Positions 19,254-31,174 of a stretch of DNA of 64,000 bases are shown here, piece by piece. A program made the translations under genes and the position numbers. The stretch is taken from positions 16,770 through 80,769 of IMG/VR virus record IMGVR_UViG_3300047478_000138; one strand, 5' to 3'. The stretch is from a virus. The notes beneath the pieces were generated by a model, which did not search any database, was not told the DNA's origin, and saw nothing but the letters and a program-made list of their open reading frames with translations. Every line of letters begins with the position of its first letter. The first letter of the stretch is position 1.

Positions 19254-19269
19254 CTAGGGAGTTCCCTAG
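19254..19269 (-). terminator. Short palindrome at end of glycyl-radical gene
   Basis: CTAGGGA and TCCCTAG form a seven-base-pair inverted repeat with a two-base centre, covering the stop codon of the 54-codon glycyl-radical gene. It may pause transcription or protect the end of the nrdD mRNA. Confidence 0.3.
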
Positions 19270-19430
19270 CAAGATGGACAAGATTGAGATTCGGTAAAGA
19301 ACTGACGTTCCTTGTGCTCTCCCTGCTTGCCGATGTTGAAGCGTTCCACAGGTACTGTGTAACCCATAACTCTACTGTAAACAATTGGTTTAGTGCGCTC
19401 AGTTGAATGAGCTGATAAAATGCTTGACAT
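19266..19430 (-). CDS. Separate glycyl-radical domain of anaerobic ribonucleotide reductase (NrdD C-terminus)
   Basis: This 54-residue protein has its own AGGAG and ATG, 51 bases after the end of the main NrdD gene. It contains YSRVMGYTVPVERFNIGK followed by GEHKER, the glycyl-radical segment that normally ends NrdD (pattern R-V-x-G-Y...P-V...W/F-N-x-G-K-x-x-E-x-x-x-R). Gly23 would be the radical site. The main NrdD protein lacks this segment, so the two must combine to give an active enzyme. This is reminiscent of the stand-alone glycyl-radical cofactor GrcA/YfiD. An extra Cys pair (CPSC) ends the protein. I am sure of the motif; the two-chain mode of action is inference. Confidence 0.8.
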   Translation of the reverse strand: MSSILSAHSTERTKPIVYSRVMGYTVPVERFNIGKQGEHKERQFFTESQSCPSC

Positions 19431-19481
19431 AAGATCTCCTTAAAATGGTGCAGGACTTACACTTGCGATGCCTGTTAGTAA

Positions 19482-21314
19482 TTAACAGTCGTTGCTGCAG
19501 CTTGGTTGGTACTTCTGTATGATTTCCTCGTCACATTTAGGGCAGAAATCATGCTCTCCATTAAGGTATCCATGTTTAGGGCATACAGAAAATACTGGAG
19601 TAATTGTAATGTAAGGCAACTTATAATTTGATATAACTGACTTAACCAATGCCTTACAAGTATCTGCTGATTTTAGGCGCTCATTCATGTATAAGTGGAG
19701 AACTGTTCCGCCTGTGTATTTACACTGGAGGTTATCCTGTAGGTTAAGGGCTTCAAAGGCGTCCTTGGTGTGTCCTGCTGGGATCTGGGAAGAATTAGTG
19801 TAATAGATGTTCTCTCCGAATCCTGCTTGCAAAATGTCTGGGTAACGTTTCTTGTCCTCTTTGGCAAATCTGTAAGTTGTTCCCTCTGCAGGAGTTGCTT
19901 CAAGATTATAAAGGTTTCCAGTTGCTTCTTGAAACTCAACCATACGAGAACGGATATGTTCTAGGATTTCAATAGCAAAGGACTCACCTACTTCTGTAGT
20001 GATGTCTAGTGAATCATCGGAGAAGTTGCGTGCCATTTCGTTAAGTCCATTTACCCCAATAGTAGAAAAGTGATTACGGAAGTGTGGTAAGTAGCGTTTG
20101 GTGTATGGGTATAGTCCACGATCATACATTTCCTGTACAAATACACGTTTCTTCTCAAGAGTTGATTTAGCCATTTCCATTAGTTCATCAAGACGTTTAT
20201 ACAATGCTGGTAAATCTCCTTTGTAGAGATATCCTAGGCGAGCCATATTTATAGTGACAACGCCGATAGATCCTGTCATTTCAGCAGAGCCGAATAGTCC
20301 GCCGCCACGCTTGAGTAGTTCACGGAGATCGAGTTGCAAACGGCAGCACATTGAACGGACATGTCCAGGTTTATATGCTTCGTCGTTAGGCACTAGTTTA
20401 CCTTCTGCGTTACGCTTGTATTGCGAACCTATAAAATTTTGGAAATAAGATGAGCCAACTTTTGCTGTGTTCTCAAATAAAACATCAGTGTTCGGACCAT
20501 CCCAATCAAAGTCCTCTGTAATGTTTACAGTTGGAATAGGGAAAGTGAAGGGATTCCCTACTGCATCACCCTCGGTTAATACTTCGTAGAATGCACGGTC
20601 AATTATTTGCATCTCTGGATGAAAGTCTCCATAAGTTGCATCAGTAAGTGATTCAATAGATGATCTGCGATTCTTCAATTCGGATAGAAGTTCTCTAGAG
20701 TTCATGCCAAGGAATAGGTGCTTCTGCTCACAAGTAGGGATTTGCGGAGCTAGATCAGTTGGTACAGTCCAGTCAATTGTAACATTCGTAAATGGAGATT
20801 GTCCCCATCTAGCCGGTACATTGAGGTTATATACAAATTGACGTATTGCCTTCTTTACTTCAACAAATGGCAGTTGATCTTTGAAGATATAGGGTGCAAG
20901 ATACGTATCAAATGAGCTAAATGCTTGAGCCCCTGCCCATTCGCTTTGCAAGATACCTAAGAAATTTGCCATCTGTCCGAGTGCTTCGCGGAAGTGGCGG
21001 GGTGCGCGAGATTCAACTCTGCCACGGACACCATTAAAGCCCTCGTCAAGTAATGCGCGAAGCGACCATCCTGCGCAGTATCCTGTAAGACAGTCGAGAT
21101 CGTGGATGTGATAGTCACCCTCACGATGTGCCTCTCCCTCTGGTTTGTTATATACTACATCAAGCCAATAATTAGCTATTGGTTTGCCTGCAAGGTTATT
21201 TACAAGTCCTGCGTTTGTGTAGTCTGTGTTAGCATTGGCATTAATACGCCAGTCTGCTTTAAGTACGTACTCTTCAACTGCTGTTGTAGAGTTAATCATT
21301 GTAGTTCGTTTCAT
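19482..21314 (-). CDS. nrdD: Anaerobic (class III) ribonucleoside-triphosphate reductase, main chain without glycyl-radical site
   Basis: The 610-residue product shows class III hallmarks: REGDYHIHDLD near residue 70, EWAGAQAFSSFDTYLAP near residue 130, and GENIYYTNSSQIP and KYTGGTVLHLYM late. A zinc-ribbon-like CPKHGYL...CPKC occurs close to the end. It reduces ribonucleoside triphosphates to deoxynucleotides without oxygen after activation by NrdG. It lacks an N-terminal ATP-cone and stops at SCSNDC before the usual RVxGY glycyl-radical segment, which is supplied by the next small gene. The ATG at 21314 overlaps the nrdG stop and is preceded by GGAGG. Confidence 0.9.
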   Translation of the reverse strand: MKRTTMINSTTAVEEYVLKADWRINANANTDYTNAGLVNNLAGKPIANYWLDVVYNKPEGEAHREGDYHIHDLDCLTGYCAGWSLRALLDEGFNGVRGRVESRAPRHFREALGQMANFLGILQSEWAGAQAFSSFDTYLAPYIFKDQLPFVEVKKAIRQFVYNLNVPARWGQSPFTNVTIDWTVPTDLAPQIPTCEQKHLFLGMNSRELLSELKNRRSSIESLTDATYGDFHPEMQIIDRAFYEVLTEGDAVGNPFTFPIPTVNITEDFDWDGPNTDVLFENTAKVGSSYFQNFIGSQYKRNAEGKLVPNDEAYKPGHVRSMCCRLQLDLRELLKRGGGLFGSAEMTGSIGVVTINMARLGYLYKGDLPALYKRLDELMEMAKSTLEKKRVFVQEMYDRGLYPYTKRYLPHFRNHFSTIGVNGLNEMARNFSDDSLDITTEVGESFAIEILEHIRSRMVEFQEATGNLYNLEATPAEGTTYRFAKEDKKRYPDILQAGFGENIYYTNSSQIPAGHTKDAFEALNLQDNLQCKYTGGTVLHLYMNERLKSADTCKALVKSVISNYKLPYITITPVFSVCPKHGYLNGEHDFCPKCDEEIIQKYQPSCSNDC

Positions 21315-21784
21315 TAGTCCTCCCAAAATTTGTGTGTAATATCTGTATGTGTGAGTAAATCATACATACGCTGATTAGTTGTTCGATTTGTCAATCCACC
21401 CATACTTGATACATAAGGTCCAGTCTTGATATAACGACATACATTAAGTATCTCTGGATGCACATCAGATAACTCAGCTCCTGTGTATAGGCATACTTGC
21501 AAATTCAGTGAGTTAACAAAAGTTGCTAGTTCAATAAATTCCTTGTGATGCTGTTCACCACCAAAAAAGACTACACAAGTTACTGTGTATGCTCCTGTGT
21601 GAGGCGATTGGTACTTATTAAGAAGCTTCAACAATACATCAGAAGTAAGAGGATATCCAACATCAGTTTGTAAGTATGCTGAATGACATCCACTACAACG
21701 GAATGGGCAATTAGATATGCTGATTGCAAAAGATGTCTCTCCTGGGACTTCCTGAAAAGAAAGTGTGTAGCCTGTGTATTTCAT
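21314..21784 (-). CDS. nrdG: Anaerobic ribonucleotide reductase activating enzyme (radical SAM)
   Basis: This 156-residue protein has the radical-SAM triad CPFRCSGC (Cys26, Cys30, Cys33) that binds a 4Fe-4S cluster, and FFGGEQHH as the SAM-binding GGE region. NrdG makes the glycyl radical on NrdD. The start at 21784 has AAGGA six bases upstream; an in-frame ATG at 21802 is less well placed. The gene is coupled to nrdD by TAATG. Here its target glycine lies on a separate small protein. Confidence 0.88.
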   Translation of the reverse strand: MKYTGYTLSFQEVPGETSFAISISNCPFRCSGCHSAYLQTDVGYPLTSDVLLKLLNKYQSPHTGAYTVTCVVFFGGEQHHKEFIELATFVNSLNLQVCLYTGAELSDVHPEILNVCRYIKTGPYVSSMGGLTNRTTNQRMYDLLTHTDITHKFWED

Positions 21785-21818
21785 GTGGTCCTTAGGTAAC
21801 AAGTGTGGTTGGATAATA

Positions 21819-21895: not shown

Positions 21896-22051
21896 TTAGT
21901 TAAAGTCATCAATATCTCCCTCAGCTGCTATGGCTTGATGCTGTGCAATCCATTGAGCATCAAGTGCTTCAATTGCTGCTTGCTTGACCTCATAAGATGC
22001 TTCCGACAATTCGTAATTCCTGCGTTTAGTTAAGTAATCAGATTCGGTCAT
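21896..22051 (-). CDS. Small hypothetical protein
   Basis: This 51-residue polar helical protein has its ATG overlapping the nrdB stop codon (ATGA). AGCAACTT precedes the ATG, so translational coupling is likely. It is too short for a family call. Its place between nrdB and nrdG suggests co-expression with nucleotide metabolism genes. Confidence 0.5.
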   Translation of the reverse strand: MTESDYLTKRRNYELSEASYEVKQAAIEALDAQWIAQHQAIAAEGDIDDFN

Positions 22052-22439
22052 GGTAAGTTGCTCCAAAATTCAGGTGTTGTGTTAGTATCCACAATTCCAA
22101 GTAAATAGTTACCTGAAGTCTTCTCTTTCTGTGCTGTTTGCACATTAGATGGACGAGTATACTTATTAGCCCATACACAAGGATTTGGCACCTTGTCAAC
22201 AATTGGAGGTTGTCCAACTGATGTCATAACAGAATGCAGATTATGTGTAACATACTGCTTAAGAACTGCGTTGTTCACGCCTAACAGGCGTGTGTCAGCA
22301 TCGTAACAATAATCAATCCAATCAAAGTCTGCTTCTATAGCATCTCTATACAATTGATCAATAACTTCAGAATGCTCGTGAAAGATATAGGCCCAGTCAG
22401 GATCCTTACGTAAACGATTCAATAGAGTTATGGTCATAG
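22048..22439 (-). CDS. nrdB: Class I ribonucleotide reductase small subunit, downstream exon
   Basis: This is the C-terminal third of NrdB, separated from the first exon by an intron of about 1.1 kb. The residues DFDWIDYCYDADTRLLGVNN match the conserved D/E-W-x-x-Y...G-L-N region. NPCVWANKYT and SGNYLLGIVDT match the C-terminal part that docks on NrdA. The reading frame joins that of the upstream exon to give about 363 residues, the usual NrdB length. The splice position near 22439 is estimated from frame and from the rule that group I introns end in G. Confidence 0.85.
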
Positions 22440-23540
22440 CATAATGCCCGGCTTCCGTTATATTCGAATAAGTTCGTTAAACTTATTCCGAGAGTTCTAT
22501 AGTACTCTCTGCTATATGTTTCCATATAGACTAGACTATATCATAGCCTCCACCATAATGTGGTAAGGCTCCTTCCGTTTCCAACTCACTTGAGCTGTAC
22601 TCTACTTGCTTCCTATTAATATTCTTTCAATTAATGGTGCTTTCGATAGTCGTTAAACTCGGAAATTATAAGTATTTTTCAATAAATGGTTTAAAGTAAG
22701 AGGGGCACTTTTTACTAATATTTCTGATATGGCATATTAAACTAGCATCACATCCAAATTCCTCTGCTATATCAGCGTTAGATCTTGTCGTTGTGTATGC
22801 TACTTTAGTGATTGTAGCAGCAATATCAATATATTTACCTTTAAGTTTCTTACTTACTGGAGCAGAAACATTAGGAAATTTGGTATCCCATAAATGCTTC
22901 CATCTTTTTTGATGTCTAATAAGAGAAACATACCTAGAATGTAGTTCATACTTATGGGCTATATCTTCATTTGATGCACCATTTAGTATTAAATTAATAA
23001 TATCAATAGCATCTTGGTTAGATAATTTAGCTGAAACATGGTCTTCACCTTGGATACGGTCTTGTAAACCTGTCTCAAACGCATGTAATTGGTTTTCTGC
23101 TCTAGTACACCACTCTAAGTTAGAGAAGTGATTATTTTGCTTATTTCCATCAATGTGGTTTATTTGAGGTTTATTATCCTTATTAGGTATAAAAGCTTGT
23201 GCAACTAGTCTATGTACTAGGAAAGGTTTAGACTGTCCTTGTGTATAAACTAATGATACATGTACATAACCACAGTTAGTAGTCACTGTAGCCATTTTAT
23301 GACCGTTTGCTTTCTTACCTTTATATGAGAATATGTCTCCGTTTTCATTTATTGTGTACCCTGGTAATCCAGGCACTGGTTTTTCGTTCATAATGCTCCT
23401 TTGCATCTATAATTTAAGTATGGATGAATTATAACATTATGTAACTTATAATTGCCTTAGTAATTGATTGTCTTCACCATTATGTGTTAAGAGGTCCCAA
23501 TTTTAGAAAGGTTATTCGACAGATATTTCTACCTGAAGGG
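22440..23540 (-). mobile_element. Group I intron interrupting nrdB
   Basis: The two nrdB coding parts flank this 1.1-kb segment. On the leftward strand, AACGACTAT (about 22645-22653) and ATAGTC (534-540 of the 22.5 kb block) can pair as the P7 helix of a group I core. A P9-like hairpin, CTATATGGAAACATATAG, follows at 22512-22529. The intron carries an HNH endonuclease gene ending just before the P7 strand. The exact ends are uncertain by a few bases: the 5' exon may end at 23541 or 23536. Phage T4 also has a group I intron in its nrdB. Confidence 0.8.
22666..23391 (-). CDS. HNH homing endonuclease in nrdB intron
   Basis: This 241-residue protein has a NUMOD4-like start (GLPGYTINENGDIFSYKG) and an HNH_3-type core: VHRLVAQAFIPN, then INHIDGNKQNNHFSNLEW. 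The His of NHID and the Asn residues form the catalytic pattern. The C-terminal 120 residues hold two helix-turn-helix-like segments that would read the target DNA. The start at 23391 has AAAGGAG five bases upstream. Such enzymes cut intron-less alleles and spread the intron. The gene lies fully inside the nrdB intron. Confidence 0.88.
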   Translation of the reverse strand: MNEKPVPGLPGYTINENGDIFSYKGKKANGHKMATVTTNCGYVHVSLVYTQGQSKPFLVHRLVAQAFIPNKDNKPQINHIDGNKQNNHFSNLEWCTRAENQLHAFETGLQDRIQGEDHVSAKLSNQDAIDIINLILNGASNEDIAHKYELHSRYVSLIRHQKRWKHLWDTKFPNVSAPVSKKLKGKYIDIAATITKVAYTTTRSNADIAEEFGCDASLICHIRNISKKCPSYFKPFIEKYL

Positions 23541-24240
23541 ACAATTTGTGTTTATCCTGTGCGATTTTGCTAATGATGTCTGCAGTTACTGAGAATAAAC
23601 CATTTTCCTTAAAAGCAAAGCTTGTAAGGAATGATGACTTGAACAGAATAGCTTCAAGAATGTTTAATGCAAATAGTGACATAACAATAGAAACTTTGTG
23701 TGCTTCTATATCATATGTTGATGTTTGCAAAATCATGTGGGAATTGTGTTGTACAGTATCATCGAAGCAAGCTACAATTGAGCTTGCACGCTTGAGTATT
23801 GCTGGATTGACCATAATATCATCAAAGATTGCTTTAGCATCAACAGGCAAGCCCTTGAGAATGTCTGCATACGATTGGCTATGAATGTTACCTTCAAAGA
23901 ATGCATGTTGATACCACCAGACTTCCAATTGTGGGTTAGTAGTTACTGGAATAAATACTTCAGCAACTGATCTAGCAGCAAGTGAGTCAAGTAAGGTCTG
24001 GAATTTCAAATTCTTCATATATAGTTGTTGGAGTTTAGGCCCACAACTAATGTAGTCCTTGCCATCCTTAGATGGTGAGAAATCTCCTGGGAACCACATC
24101 TTCCCAATAGCAGCTGCAGTTGCAGCACTAATATGAGCTTCGATAGATAAATCAAGTCGGGATATATTACGACCATTCGGATCCAAAAATAGTGAGGACT
24201 TAGTAAAATCTACTGGATTAGGATTAAATAAATGACTCAT
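23541..24240 (-). CDS. nrdB: Class I ribonucleotide reductase small subunit, upstream exon
   Basis: The start at 24240 overlaps the nrdA stop codon (ATGA). The first 233 residues align well with T4 and bacterial NrdB: HLFNPNPVDF at the N-terminus, LKFQTLLDS with the first metal ligand Asp, and IHSQSY with the radical Tyr. ILEAI holds the next ligand Glu. Two ligand sites look odd. The helix before HSQSY reads FFEGNIH, one residue longer than the usual E-x-x-H. The exon end reads AQDKHKLS where R-D-E-x-x-H is expected. The frame stays open past the splice point for eleven codons to a stop at 23512. Confidence 0.87.
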
Positions 24241-26459
24241 ACTGAACAACCTCCGCCTTGGCATGTAGAAGTAAGTTCCTGTTCATCTGGAAGCTTAACA
24301 TTCATATAATATCTCCCTTTGCAACCGTAATACTTCGCTAGAAATAAGTCACTAATAACTGATGTTGATAGCACTTTCCCGCCATTCAATTCAGGATTGT
24401 AGAATGTATTTGCTGATATGCCCTTGTCGATCCACTTCTGCGTAACTGCAACGTGCTTGATGAAGTCAGCATTAATGTCCCTATCGTATGCAAAGTCATA
24501 TTTATCTGCTAATCGAATACAATCAGGTGCGAATTGTTTGTAATTCACTCCAGATTTGTCCTTGATTGTCATCAAATTACGAATTGGCTCAAGACCGGTT
24601 GTCTGATTAGATGGACCGGCAGAGGTTTCTGCAGGAGGTACCATCATTAGACCGACATTATACATACCATGTCGGAGAATTTGCGTGTCTAACCATTCCC
24701 AATCACAATAAGTTGCTGATGAAACAAGTTCGTCAACATTGCGATTGTAACGATTGATAGGCAATAACTTGTCATGATAGATAAAGCCTGGAGCTGCTCC
24801 AAGTTCTTGTGCAAGTTGCATAGATGCTACATGACAGTCAAATGAGAAATTCTCCATCCATTCGTTATGTGCTTCAAGTGCTGCTGAATTGCCGTATCTC
24901 CAACCGTGATGAGCCAACCAAAATGCATGATTAGATAATCCAAGACCAATATCACGATAAGTAGCTACATAGGCGTTTGCTTGAGATGTAGGGTGTACTT
25001 GTCGTTGCATGATATGCGATTGTGCGCGAACCAATAGATTAGTGACGTGTGGTAATTGGTCAATGGAAACAAGTCCCTGATTGACGTTACCAAGTACACA
25101 TACACCAATATCAGGATTGTCAGGTTGCTTCGGATCAAGGGGTTGCACACTAGTCATAAACTCAATACAAATGTTTGCCATATTAATAGGACGAGGAATA
25201 CAAGAGTTTGCATTCATTTCATCAATATTCAATATGTAGTATGATGAAGTTTCCGTGGATTCAACTGCAACTAAACGATTCCAGAAGTCCTGTGCATCAA
25301 TCTGTCCGCTATAAAGCTCTGCTGCTTCACATTCCTCATAATACTTTGTAAATGAATCAACATCTGCTGAGTAAAATAACTCAAGCATGCGTGGACACTT
25401 ACGAGTAGAGAATAGTGAAATAGGTCTACCATCCTTGGCACGATCATATACAAGTTGGTTGACTTTGATACCATAAGATAAATCGTTAACACGATCCTCT
25501 ACCGGCATACGAGGTGACTTAAGTGCAAAGATAGTTTCTATCTCTGGGTCAAAGAAATTCAGATATGGAGTAGCTGATCCGCGTCTGCCGTTCTGGGAGG
25601 CTTTGCTGATGTTTGCATCAATTGATTTGATAATAGGTAACTTACCAGAATGAGATATTCTGCCTTGCTTAACCTTATCCCCAATTGAGGCTAAATCTGC
25701 AATATCCTCACCAATGCCGGCTGATGCTACTGTATGCAATACTAAAGCCTTGTCACATTCAACCCATGAATCAATAGAGTCTCCTCTACGAAAAACTATA
25801 CATGAAGCATAATCAGTTGATATTGTGCGAAGAGACTTCATTTCCGGGGTTGGAAGAGTGATATGAAATAGTGATAAAGCATTGTAAAAGTCAATAATGT
25901 ACTGGGTTGGGTTAATATGATAGTCATGAAATGTGTCAATAGCAATTGCCATAAACATAAATTGTGGGGTTTCATACTTGCAAACACCATACCCATTAAC
26001 TAAAGCATCAAGTCCAGATGAGGTGAAAGTAAAATCACGTGAGTGATTAATTGCTTGCTCAAGTGCTTGTATGTCAATTCCATTATAAATTAATCTAGGT
26101 GGAGATAATTCTGGTGAATAATGTCCAGCTAGAACTCGTTCAGTTAAGAATTCAGTTAAACTAGGTGGATTGATTGACTTGAAAACATGCTTGTACAATT
26201 TCTGCAACTTGAGATTGCGTGCTACTGTATCGTAATTGGGATTACGCAAGTCTGCTAAATCATCACATGTCTTGATAAAAATATCAGTGATATAACTAGT
26301 ATGGATTCCGTCAAATAAATGTAATTTTGACTGAATCTCTATATCAGACACTGATACTCCTGATACTCCATTAACAGCCCACTCAAGACTTGCTGTTGCT
26401 TTAGATATGTCCAAAGGTTCCAGCTTCCCAGAGTGCTTAACTACATGAATAGTGGACAT
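24237..26459 (-). CDS. nrdA: Class I ribonucleoside-diphosphate reductase large subunit
   Basis: This 740-residue protein has an N-terminal ATP-cone (VVKHSGKLEPLD) for allosteric control. Catalytic-site regions include ASCIVFRRGDS, NICIE with the Asn-Cys-Glu triad, and VCVLGNVN with a partner Cys. The C-terminal CQGGGC pair accepts electrons from thioredoxin or glutaredoxin. It reduces ribonucleoside diphosphates together with NrdB. The ATG at 26459 lies one base past the HU-like gene stop; an open extension upstream to 26612 is antisense-free overlap and is rejected. nrdB follows with an ATGA overlap. Confidence 0.92.
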   Translation of the reverse strand: MSTIHVVKHSGKLEPLDISKATASLEWAVNGVSGVSVSDIEIQSKLHLFDGIHTSYITDIFIKTCDDLADLRNPNYDTVARNLKLQKLYKHVFKSINPPSLTEFLTERVLAGHYSPELSPPRLIYNGIDIQALEQAINHSRDFTFTSSGLDALVNGYGVCKYETPQFMFMAIAIDTFHDYHINPTQYIIDFYNALSLFHITLPTPEMKSLRTISTDYASCIVFRRGDSIDSWVECDKALVLHTVASAGIGEDIADLASIGDKVKQGRISHSGKLPIIKSIDANISKASQNGRRGSATPYLNFFDPEIETIFALKSPRMPVEDRVNDLSYGIKVNQLVYDRAKDGRPISLFSTRKCPRMLELFYSADVDSFTKYYEECEAAELYSGQIDAQDFWNRLVAVESTETSSYYILNIDEMNANSCIPRPINMANICIEFMTSVQPLDPKQPDNPDIGVCVLGNVNQGLVSIDQLPHVTNLLVRAQSHIMQRQVHPTSQANAYVATYRDIGLGLSNHAFWLAHHGWRYGNSAALEAHNEWMENFSFDCHVASMQLAQELGAAPGFIYHDKLLPINRYNRNVDELVSSATYCDWEWLDTQILRHGMYNVGLMMVPPAETSAGPSNQTTGLEPIRNLMTIKDKSGVNYKQFAPDCIRLADKYDFAYDRDINADFIKHVAVTQKWIDKGISANTFYNPELNGGKVLSTSVISDLFLAKYYGCKGRYYMNVKLPDEQELTSTCQGGGCSV

Positions 26460-29875: not shown

Positions 29876-31174
29876 CTTATATGTTCAAGTGCACCTCGTT
29901 AATGTGCATTCTGGTAATTTAATACCAACTATATGTCTCCATATAGAACAGACCATATCTTCATCCAATAATGGATGCTCACTATTTCGGATCACTTGAT
30001 CCTACTCCCTCGCGGGATGGTCGTTGAGGGTTCAACAGTAAATTAATACTACGTTGCTTCCCTGCTGATTGTCCATAGCTTATAGATTTTCAGGGTTCGC
30101 TATCTACTTTCGTGATAGTATCCTACTATAAGATTGACTGGAGTTTCCAGCATAAAAATGAGTTTGCATATGCAGATTACTCTGCATAGGGGCAATTAAA
30201 TTTAATTATTATACATTATTGCTATAACACCACTTATAACCATAACTTGTTTTTTGTCTATTTCTGCAGGTACTTGTAATACTATCTCCAGAAAGAGCGC
30301 CTACAAATTCCGCTGCTTCTATAGCAGAATTAAAAGATCTTAAATACACTCCATCAAGAGTGAGTTGATCAATTTTACGTCCACAAGCTTCTCTAGTATT
30401 AATTGAAGAAGACACAAAAGAAATTGTGTGCGGAGCATATACTGCAGGAGATATTCCAAGTTCTCTACATTTGATATCCTTATCAATTTCAAGGCCTTTA
30501 GCCCATCCATTTGAAGTACACCATGTTATAAATGCTACTGGATCATCTATCCATTCAGGTGCCATAGTCACGCCTTTACCACCATAATTATGATAGTCCT
30601 TACGTAGAGGAGAGTAGCAACGTTGTTTAATTCCGTTCCATATAGGATATAAAGGATGAGTATGCATTCGTTTATTCTCAGAAGCACAAGTAATACACTT
30701 AGTTTGGGACTTTGCTGTAGTCCCTGTTGCTCGTGCTTTAAAATGTGCTTTACATTCAGTACATTCAAATATGGCATATCTTGCTATATTCGTAGAAGAG
30801 TCTGAGGCAGTAGTCATTCCTAAATCTTCAATAATAGTCATCTGAAATTCAGATTGTATTAATGGTTTAGTTATAGCTTTCTGTTGAGACTCTTTTGCAC
30901 ATTCTGTACAGTATAAACTTTTCTTTGCATTTTGCACATCTCGTTCAATGTGCTTTGCACAAACTGTACATGCAAATATTGCATAACGTTTAGGGGACTT
31001 CATTCCTGGTTTATGTATTGTTCCAAGATCCTGTATAATAAGCATTTTATACTCTGCTTGATTTAGTGGTTTTCGTGATGTATGTTTCATATAAGCTCCT
31101 TTATGATTTGTTAGTATAACTAAACAAAGTTAATAGTTTGCTTAAATGAGCGGTGTGTATAATAATTAAAATTT
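29876..31174 (-). mobile_element. Group I intron interrupting the SF1 helicase gene
   Basis: The 1.3-kb segment separates the two helicase exons. On the leftward strand it carries CAATCAGCAGGAAGC (30057-30071), a typical group I P4-P6 string. GACCAT (30018-30023) and ATGGTC (29951-29956) can form P7, followed by a P9-like hairpin at 29929-29946. The HNH gene lies in the 5' half, upstream of the core. Near 30196, GCCCCTA could pair with the 5' exon end AAGGGT as P1, which would place the endonuclease gene in the P1 loop. Ends are inferred from frame and from the U/G rule. Confidence 0.8.
30209..31090 (-). CDS. HNH-type homing endonuclease in helicase intron, with zinc-ribbon repeats and NUMOD-like end
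   Basis: This 293-residue protein starts with two Cys-pair repeats (CTVC...CTEC and CTEC...CITC). A nuclease core of the 'W-x-x-I/M-x-x-R-C' type follows: LYPIWNGIKQRCYSP, YGGKGVTM, EW, then GLEIDKDI. It ends with a NUMOD-like DNA-binding element (YLRSFNSAIEAAEFVG...YGYKWCY). Its N-terminal repeats resemble those of the GIY-YIG enzyme at 56.4 kb. AAAGGAG precedes the ATG. It should promote spread of the helicase intron. Confidence 0.82.
   Translation of the reverse strand: MKHTSRKPLNQAEYKMLIIQDLGTIHKPGMKSPKRYAIFACTVCAKHIERDVQNAKKSLYCTECAKESQQKAITKPLIQSEFQMTIIEDLGMTTASDSSTNIARYAIFECTECKAHFKARATGTTAKSQTKCITCASENKRMHTHPLYPIWNGIKQRCYSPLRKDYHNYGGKGVTMAPEWIDDPVAFITWCTSNGWAKGLEIDKDIKCRELGISPAVYAPHTISFVSSSINTREACGRKIDQLTLDGVYLRSFNSAIEAAEFVGALSGDSITSTCRNRQKTSYGYKWCYSNNV

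Follow-up and report, generated by a model that had tools for sequence, protein, structure and literature searches.

The window analysed here is a stretch of 64,000 nucleotides from a virus record of 80,769 bp (~80.8 kb), in which the nrd genes lie on the minus strand. Along this strand they follow one another in the order nrdA, an interrupted nrdB, nrdG, an nrdD core and an open reading frame (ORF) of 54 codons. The region from nrdG onward contains the following features.

21314..21802, minus strand: nrdG activase (radical SAM), NrdG3-like, whose stop overlaps the nrdD start (TAATG); Fer4_12, E 1.8e-07, and TIGR02826
19482..21314, minus strand: nrdD catalytic core, 610 aa, from the ATG at 21314 to the stop at 19482-19484, with neither a glycyl-radical segment nor an ATP-cone
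20343..20348, minus strand: codons of Cys323 and Cys324 (SMCCR, near the finger loop), candidate radical/redox cysteines, invariant in alignment A2
19533..19583, minus strand: zinc-ribbon CPKHGY...CPKC (C578, H581, C591 and C594) at the end of the core, invariant in alignment A2
19431..19481, minus strand: gap of 51 nt between the two ORFs, holding a second in-frame TAA, from the sequence and the read-through translation
19436..19441, minus strand: Shine-Dalgarno site AAGGAG of the small gene, 5 nt before its ATG, from the sequence
19266..19430, minus strand: predicted separate glycyl-radical subunit, 54 aa, from the ATG at 19430 to the stop at 19266-19268, with YSRVMGY...FNIGK and a C-terminal SCPSC
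19362..19364, minus strand: codon of Gly23 of the small subunit (RVMGY), the predicted radical glycine, from alignment A3 and class III homology

The large chain matches the NrdD catalytic barrel in both Pfam NRDD (positions 2-534 of 562, E 1.3e-157) and PRK08270 (95-657 of 684, 987 bits, cut-off 548), and it is up to 79% identical to bacterial cores found in a genome scan. It terminates in ...CPKCDEEIIQKYQPSCSNDC. In fused relatives, the zinc ribbon continues within a few residues to EVYSRITGYYRPV, and the window chain halts just before that arginine. No glycyl-radical motif was found at the C-terminus of this chain, which stops at NRDD position 534. The end of the profile (535-562 of 562) is matched by the 54-residue ORF with E 8.4e-06 and 25.1 bits, which just misses the curated cut-off of 26.2. 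The two ORFs tile the NRDD profile exactly, and the whole 80,769-bp record has no further NRDD match. An earlier note, made from the sequence of the window, had stated that the main chain lacks its own glycyl-radical site and that this site is encoded by a separate gene, which follows after 51 nt and has a Shine-Dalgarno site and an ATG of its own. Both statements are confirmed by the sequence and the NRDD coverage. The ORF adjoining nrdD is a cognate radical SAM activase, as class III enzymes have, with a match to TIGR02826 (139.9 bits, E 5e-41) slightly below the cut-off of 151.7.

Several other elements of the region were observed. The phage core is devoid of the N-terminal ATP-cone region that is present in the PRK08270 profile and in Cupriavidus necator. 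The phage activase is NrdG3-like and precedes nrdD; in the bacterial loci with a split nrdD, the activase is NrdG2 and follows the small gene. The nrdB gene of the window (22048-24264) is interrupted and consists of an N-terminal ORF (23512-24264), an HNH endonuclease ORF (22666-23406) and a C-terminal ORF (22048-22437), with a sub-threshold group I intron match at 22512-22703 (33.9 bits, E 1.5e-6). A group I intron (Rfam RF00028, 68.7 bits) lies on the minus strand at 29929-30213, adjoining an ORF at 30209-31090.

The core and the small ORF of the window share one frame, and two TAA codons stand between them. One computed open-frame length, 697 aa, conflicts with these two codons, which are read directly in the DNA, and we relied on the sequence. 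TAA is the most common stop, ending 34 of the 49 ORFs examined, and is therefore a stop codon here. Reassignment of TAA was ruled out because most genes of the window end in it. A hidden intron at the gap was ruled out by an Rfam search, which gave no match there and no group I intron signal between 19000 and 21900. A gap of 51 nt is too short for a group I intron. It also holds no ORF of note; thus, an endonuclease gene of the Aeh1 type is not present at the breakpoint.

The same arrangement, in which the core lacks the segment and another ORF carries it, was found at 63 loci of bacteria and phages (the window and 62 others). The pairs were gathered by scanning genomes, first with three aligned NrdD proteins and then with a profile of the radical segment. 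Such alignment-based scans recovered relatives where single-sequence scans had not; the latter confirmed no close viral-contig relatives of the two window proteins. No near-identical phages were found in INPHARED. The pairs come from Campylobacterota, Bacteroidota, Verrucomicrobiota, Lentisphaerota, Pseudomonadota, an armatimonadote and Spirochaetota. They include isolates (Flavobacterium antarcticum, Algoriphagus aestuariicola, Alloalcanivorax xenomutans, Janthinobacterium and Arcobacter caeni) and complete plasmids of Sulfuricurvum kujiense, C. necator H16 and Bradyrhizobium ottawaense. Three further phages carry a core and a separate radical ORF, as the earlier note had suggested looking for. 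Because the arrangement recurs at 62 other loci, the split in the window is more than chance.

The distance from the core to the small gene ranges from -47 to +1160 nt among the 63 pairs, and their relative frames are distributed as 20/27/16. A Shine-Dalgarno-like site was found upstream of the small gene in 40 of the 63 by a simple count. The relatives do not have a coding gap of fixed length that joins the frames, as in a bypass of the T4 gene 60 type. Since the gaps vary and all frames occur, sequencing error, splicing, read-through and bypass are excluded as general explanations of the split. The view that an intron is unlikely, expressed previously for this locus, is borne out by these data.

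Sixteen of the records that contain the loci were searched over their full length. In most, a single core (ending near position 530) is accompanied by a single radical ORF (531-562), and a fused NrdD was found in none of them. One Sulfurimonas genome gave a single match that reads through one TAA, an in-frame layout like that of the window, and one Arcobacteraceae genome has two radical ORFs. In Campylobacter sp. (L056), the radical ORF is on a contig other than that of the core. In one phage (L006), it lies ~110 kb from the core, where it was missed by Pfam and found with the small-protein profile. This radical gene (L200, 650-1590) is broken right after RVMGY by an insert of ~790 nt with a LAGLIDADG-like ORF, where the intron models of Rfam gave no match. 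Inteins (Intein_splicing or weak Hint matches) were observed in three phage cores of the split type (L006, 4653-7562; L032, 3954-7772; L020, 3483-6410), and one intein of L032 seems to start inside the SMCC cysteine motif.

In samples of three phyla, named after their seed genomes and each counting its seed, the split was found in about 24 of 29 NrdD-bearing genomes of Campylobacterota, 4 of 6 of Bacteroidota and 4 of 9 of Pseudomonadota, and no genome had both fused and split forms. The small genes of Akkermansia have dN of 0-0.11 against dS of 0.43-0.68. Near relatives alone were used here, as saturation in most pairs makes the overall median dN/dS of 0.40 unreliable.

The residues expected for catalysis are conserved in both pieces. 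In the 36-row alignment A2, Cys80, Cys323-Cys324 and the zinc ligands of the core are invariant. The MCCR motif precedes the finger loop (S321-M-C-C-R325); this motif is described as the diagnostic mark of NrdDh4 in the accessible text of PMC4493059, according to which the related enzyme of N. bacilliformis uses thioredoxin. In an alignment of the small protein with 17 stand-alone relatives (A3), Arg20, Met22, Gly23, Tyr24, Asn32, Gly34 and Lys35 are among the invariant residues. The window protein has GYTVP where its relatives have GYHRP, and proline replaces the cysteine of ERTKC. With these two departures at otherwise conserved places, the window copy is divergent. At least two cysteines occur within the last 15 residues in 19 of the 63 small proteins, including SCPSC of the window, and this tail has a possible redox role. 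According to the passages available from a 2015 review (PMC4390871), modern class III enzymes lack a C-terminal cysteine pair. A tandem duplication that left cysteine tails on both chains (SCSNDC and SCPSC) is unsupported, as only 2 of the 63 cores have paired tail cysteines.

A structure model was calculated with the two ORFs as one read-through chain and TAA written as glycine, a modeling device that makes no claim about the protein. The mean pLDDT is 86, with ~83-87 across most of the radical part and <50 in the linker. The best solved neighbour of the model is Prevotella copri NrdD (8p2s, TM 0.70/0.73). Since the chain was linked and fused homologues were in the alignment, the model shows plausibility and not assembly. 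Docking, activation and catalysis by the core and the small subunit are predicted, and the following course is proposed. The radical would be generated by NrdG at Gly23 of the small protein, which would dock on the core, most likely at the zinc-ribbon end, where fused homologues continue. The docked subunit may push its RVMGY loop into the NrdD barrel. Its radical would then oxidise a core cysteine, and the reduction of NTP would start.

We interpret the locus, with high confidence, as a two-chain class III (anaerobic) ribonucleotide reductase that consists of an NrdD core and an obligate, separately translated glycyl-radical subunit. A natural enzyme of two chains had been proposed in the earlier note, and it is supported by the same split at the 62 other loci. 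A frame error, a spliced gap and a radical site within the main chain, which that note had named as contrary findings, were each checked, and none was found. The common frame and the 51-nt gap of the window would also fit a single continuous chain made by stop read-through, splicing or ribosomal bypass (~50 nt, in the style of T4 gene 60). However, this is highly improbable, considering the two TAA stops, the lack of an intron signal, the different gaps, frames and own start sites of the relatives, and the unlinked genes of some pairs. A broken or decaying phage nrdD, or a split caused by a sequencing or assembly error, would be in line with the divergence of the small protein at two conserved positions and with the origin of the sequence from a single metagenomic contig. 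Nevertheless, both ORFs of the window are intact with good Shine-Dalgarno sites, and the same layout occurs in isolates, complete plasmids and the three further phages, which makes such a defect very hard to believe.

It is also improbable that the small ORF is a non-obligate spare part for oxygen-cleaved radical domains, like GrcA, and that the core takes its radical from elsewhere. Such a function is established for GrcA/YfiD with pyruvate formate-lyase (PMC8683613), and many phage contigs, as well as the ANMV-1 virus, bear the small protein without an NrdD core. However, the core of the window has no radical site, and the split genomes have no fused NrdD to repair; therefore, the radical must normally be carried here by the small protein. 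The search against NrdD profiles and GrcA that the earlier note had recommended gave matches to the NrdD profiles and not to the GrcA family. NRDD is the sole Pfam family that matches the small protein at E ≤ 1, and its membership in the GrcA/YfiD family (the pyruvate formate-lyase type of glycine-radical proteins) was rejected. Even as the normal radical subunit in the two-chain enzyme, the small protein may be exchangeable.

Stand-alone radical proteins are also found apart from cores. The small-protein alignment gave 161 confirmed places in viral contigs. Among the best 80 of the 161, an NrdD core is absent near the radical protein in 78 within the stretch examined, and no core was found in 24 such records searched whole; in both cases the records may be fragments. 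The neighbours of these orphan genes include holin, endolysin, major head protein, tape measure and terminase. The orphan NrdD-type proteins have 50-130 aa (L118-L197, e.g., L118, 3989-4138; L197, 3959-4180; L132, L153 and L185), and that of L118 sits between holin and endolysin. A similar protein is present in the ANMV-1 virus and in the Allochromatium plasmid pALVIN01. In ANMV-1, an archaeal virus, a 144-aa protein with a zinc-ribbon and a glycyl-radical segment (AJP62049; L005, 3674-4105) is annotated as a whole reductase, and it is the only annotated reductase within the 8.1-kb stretch examined. The earlier note had suggested that radical subunits cleaved by oxygen may be replaced during infection, and the orphan copies in phage contigs without NrdD make an exchange in trans plausible. 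We consider it possible, at slightly less than an even chance, that the radical subunit is exchangeable between phage and host, that bacterial cores without the radical segment accept such a subunit in trans and that phages without NrdD carry just the protein of 50-130 aa to recharge or take over the host enzyme, as a counterpart of GrcA.

The ancestry of the split was investigated with a quick maximum-likelihood tree of 94 cores, from which the radical columns were left out. The split and fused states require 4 changes, compared with a shuffled mean of 27.5; this number does not tell fission from re-fusion. The low number indicates that fusion or separation of the two pieces has occurred several times, which is expected of partners. 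In a simple scenario, fission may have taken place in the large clade and, separately, in spirochaetes, and the pieces may have fused again in Alphaproteobacteria/Rickettsiales and in Actinomycetota. The phage core clusters with a Campylobacterota clade (support 92, not starred). The idea that the split is a peculiarity of the phage is not supported: among bacteria it is both old and common, and the clade next to the phage was already split. Most likely, the phage acquired the system in its split form from a source resembling Campylobacterota. The small proteins of two spirochaetes (L107, 6753-7277; L112, 6738-7298) have a C-terminal redoxin-like domain (CxxCPP; weak Pfam matches) and combine the radical carrier with a probable reductant. 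The fused NrdD of several phages also bears a C-terminal redoxin. Therefore, the radical segment and the reductant behave as movable modules. In gut and other phages (L003, L007-L017 and L030), the glycyl-radical domain of NrdD is followed by a fused thioredoxin/NrdH-like domain.

The core, the small gene (H16_RS32675) and nrdG2 lie in a row on plasmid pHG1 of C. necator H16. The plasmid-borne nrdDG of this strain is reported to be essential for complete denitrification in the available part of PMC2864759, citing Siedow 1999. It is therefore very probable that a class III enzyme of two chains functions in vivo; the genetics of C. necator cover nrdDG as a whole without singling out the small gene. 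In strain CH34, NrdDG is given as Rmet_5137 and Rmet_5139 in the same passages, and the intervening gene is unnamed. The automatic annotation of NCBI names both pieces 'ribonucleoside-triphosphate reductase'. The small gene may have been overlooked for these reasons. The accessible passages of the openly licensed literature, including RNR-wide phylogenies, RNRdb, evolution papers and the NrdDh paper (PMC4493059, in the portion of its text searched), contain no mention of a split class III enzyme. We provisionally consider the two-chain class III reductase to be previously undescribed.

Glycyl-radical reductases are treated as single chains that oxygen cuts irreversibly at the radical site, and this assumption needs testing. 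If the radical segment is a separate product in a large group of organisms, exchanging the damaged part could cost little, a benefit to the facultative and micro-oxic bacteria among which the split is common. The split also makes the entry and exit of the radical loop from the barrel during activation directly testable. It offers a ready reading for the orphan radical proteins in phages; if these are real, phages bring just the radical subunit for the host enzyme.

Compared with known systems, GrcA/YfiD is likewise a small stand-alone protein with a glycyl-radical segment, but the likeness is in concept only: its partner is damaged by oxygen, whereas the partner of the window protein lacks the site by design. 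The reductase of phage Aeh1 reportedly works as separate chains. Its NrdA was broken into pieces by the insertion of a homing endonuclease, according to the part of PMC3322345 available, which cites Friedrich 2007. The Aeh1 enzyme belongs to class I and its split involves a homing endonuclease gene, whereas the window has a 51-nt gap without an endonuclease and a split common to many bacteria. NrdJa/NrdJb of Pseudomonas aeruginosa is also a reductase in two chains, but it belongs to class II and is B12-dependent (PMC4520616); the accessible text of this 2015 paper calls it 'a unique example' in free-living organisms. Another close known system is the NrdDh4 subclass of class III (RNRdb scheme, PMC4493059), which in its wider sense includes the solved relatives NbNrdD and TmNrdD and shares the core sequence, the MCCR motif, the zinc ribbon and a dedicated activase with the window. 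As described, NrdDh4 has the radical domain at the C-terminus of its own chain, whereas in the window it is a separate protein.
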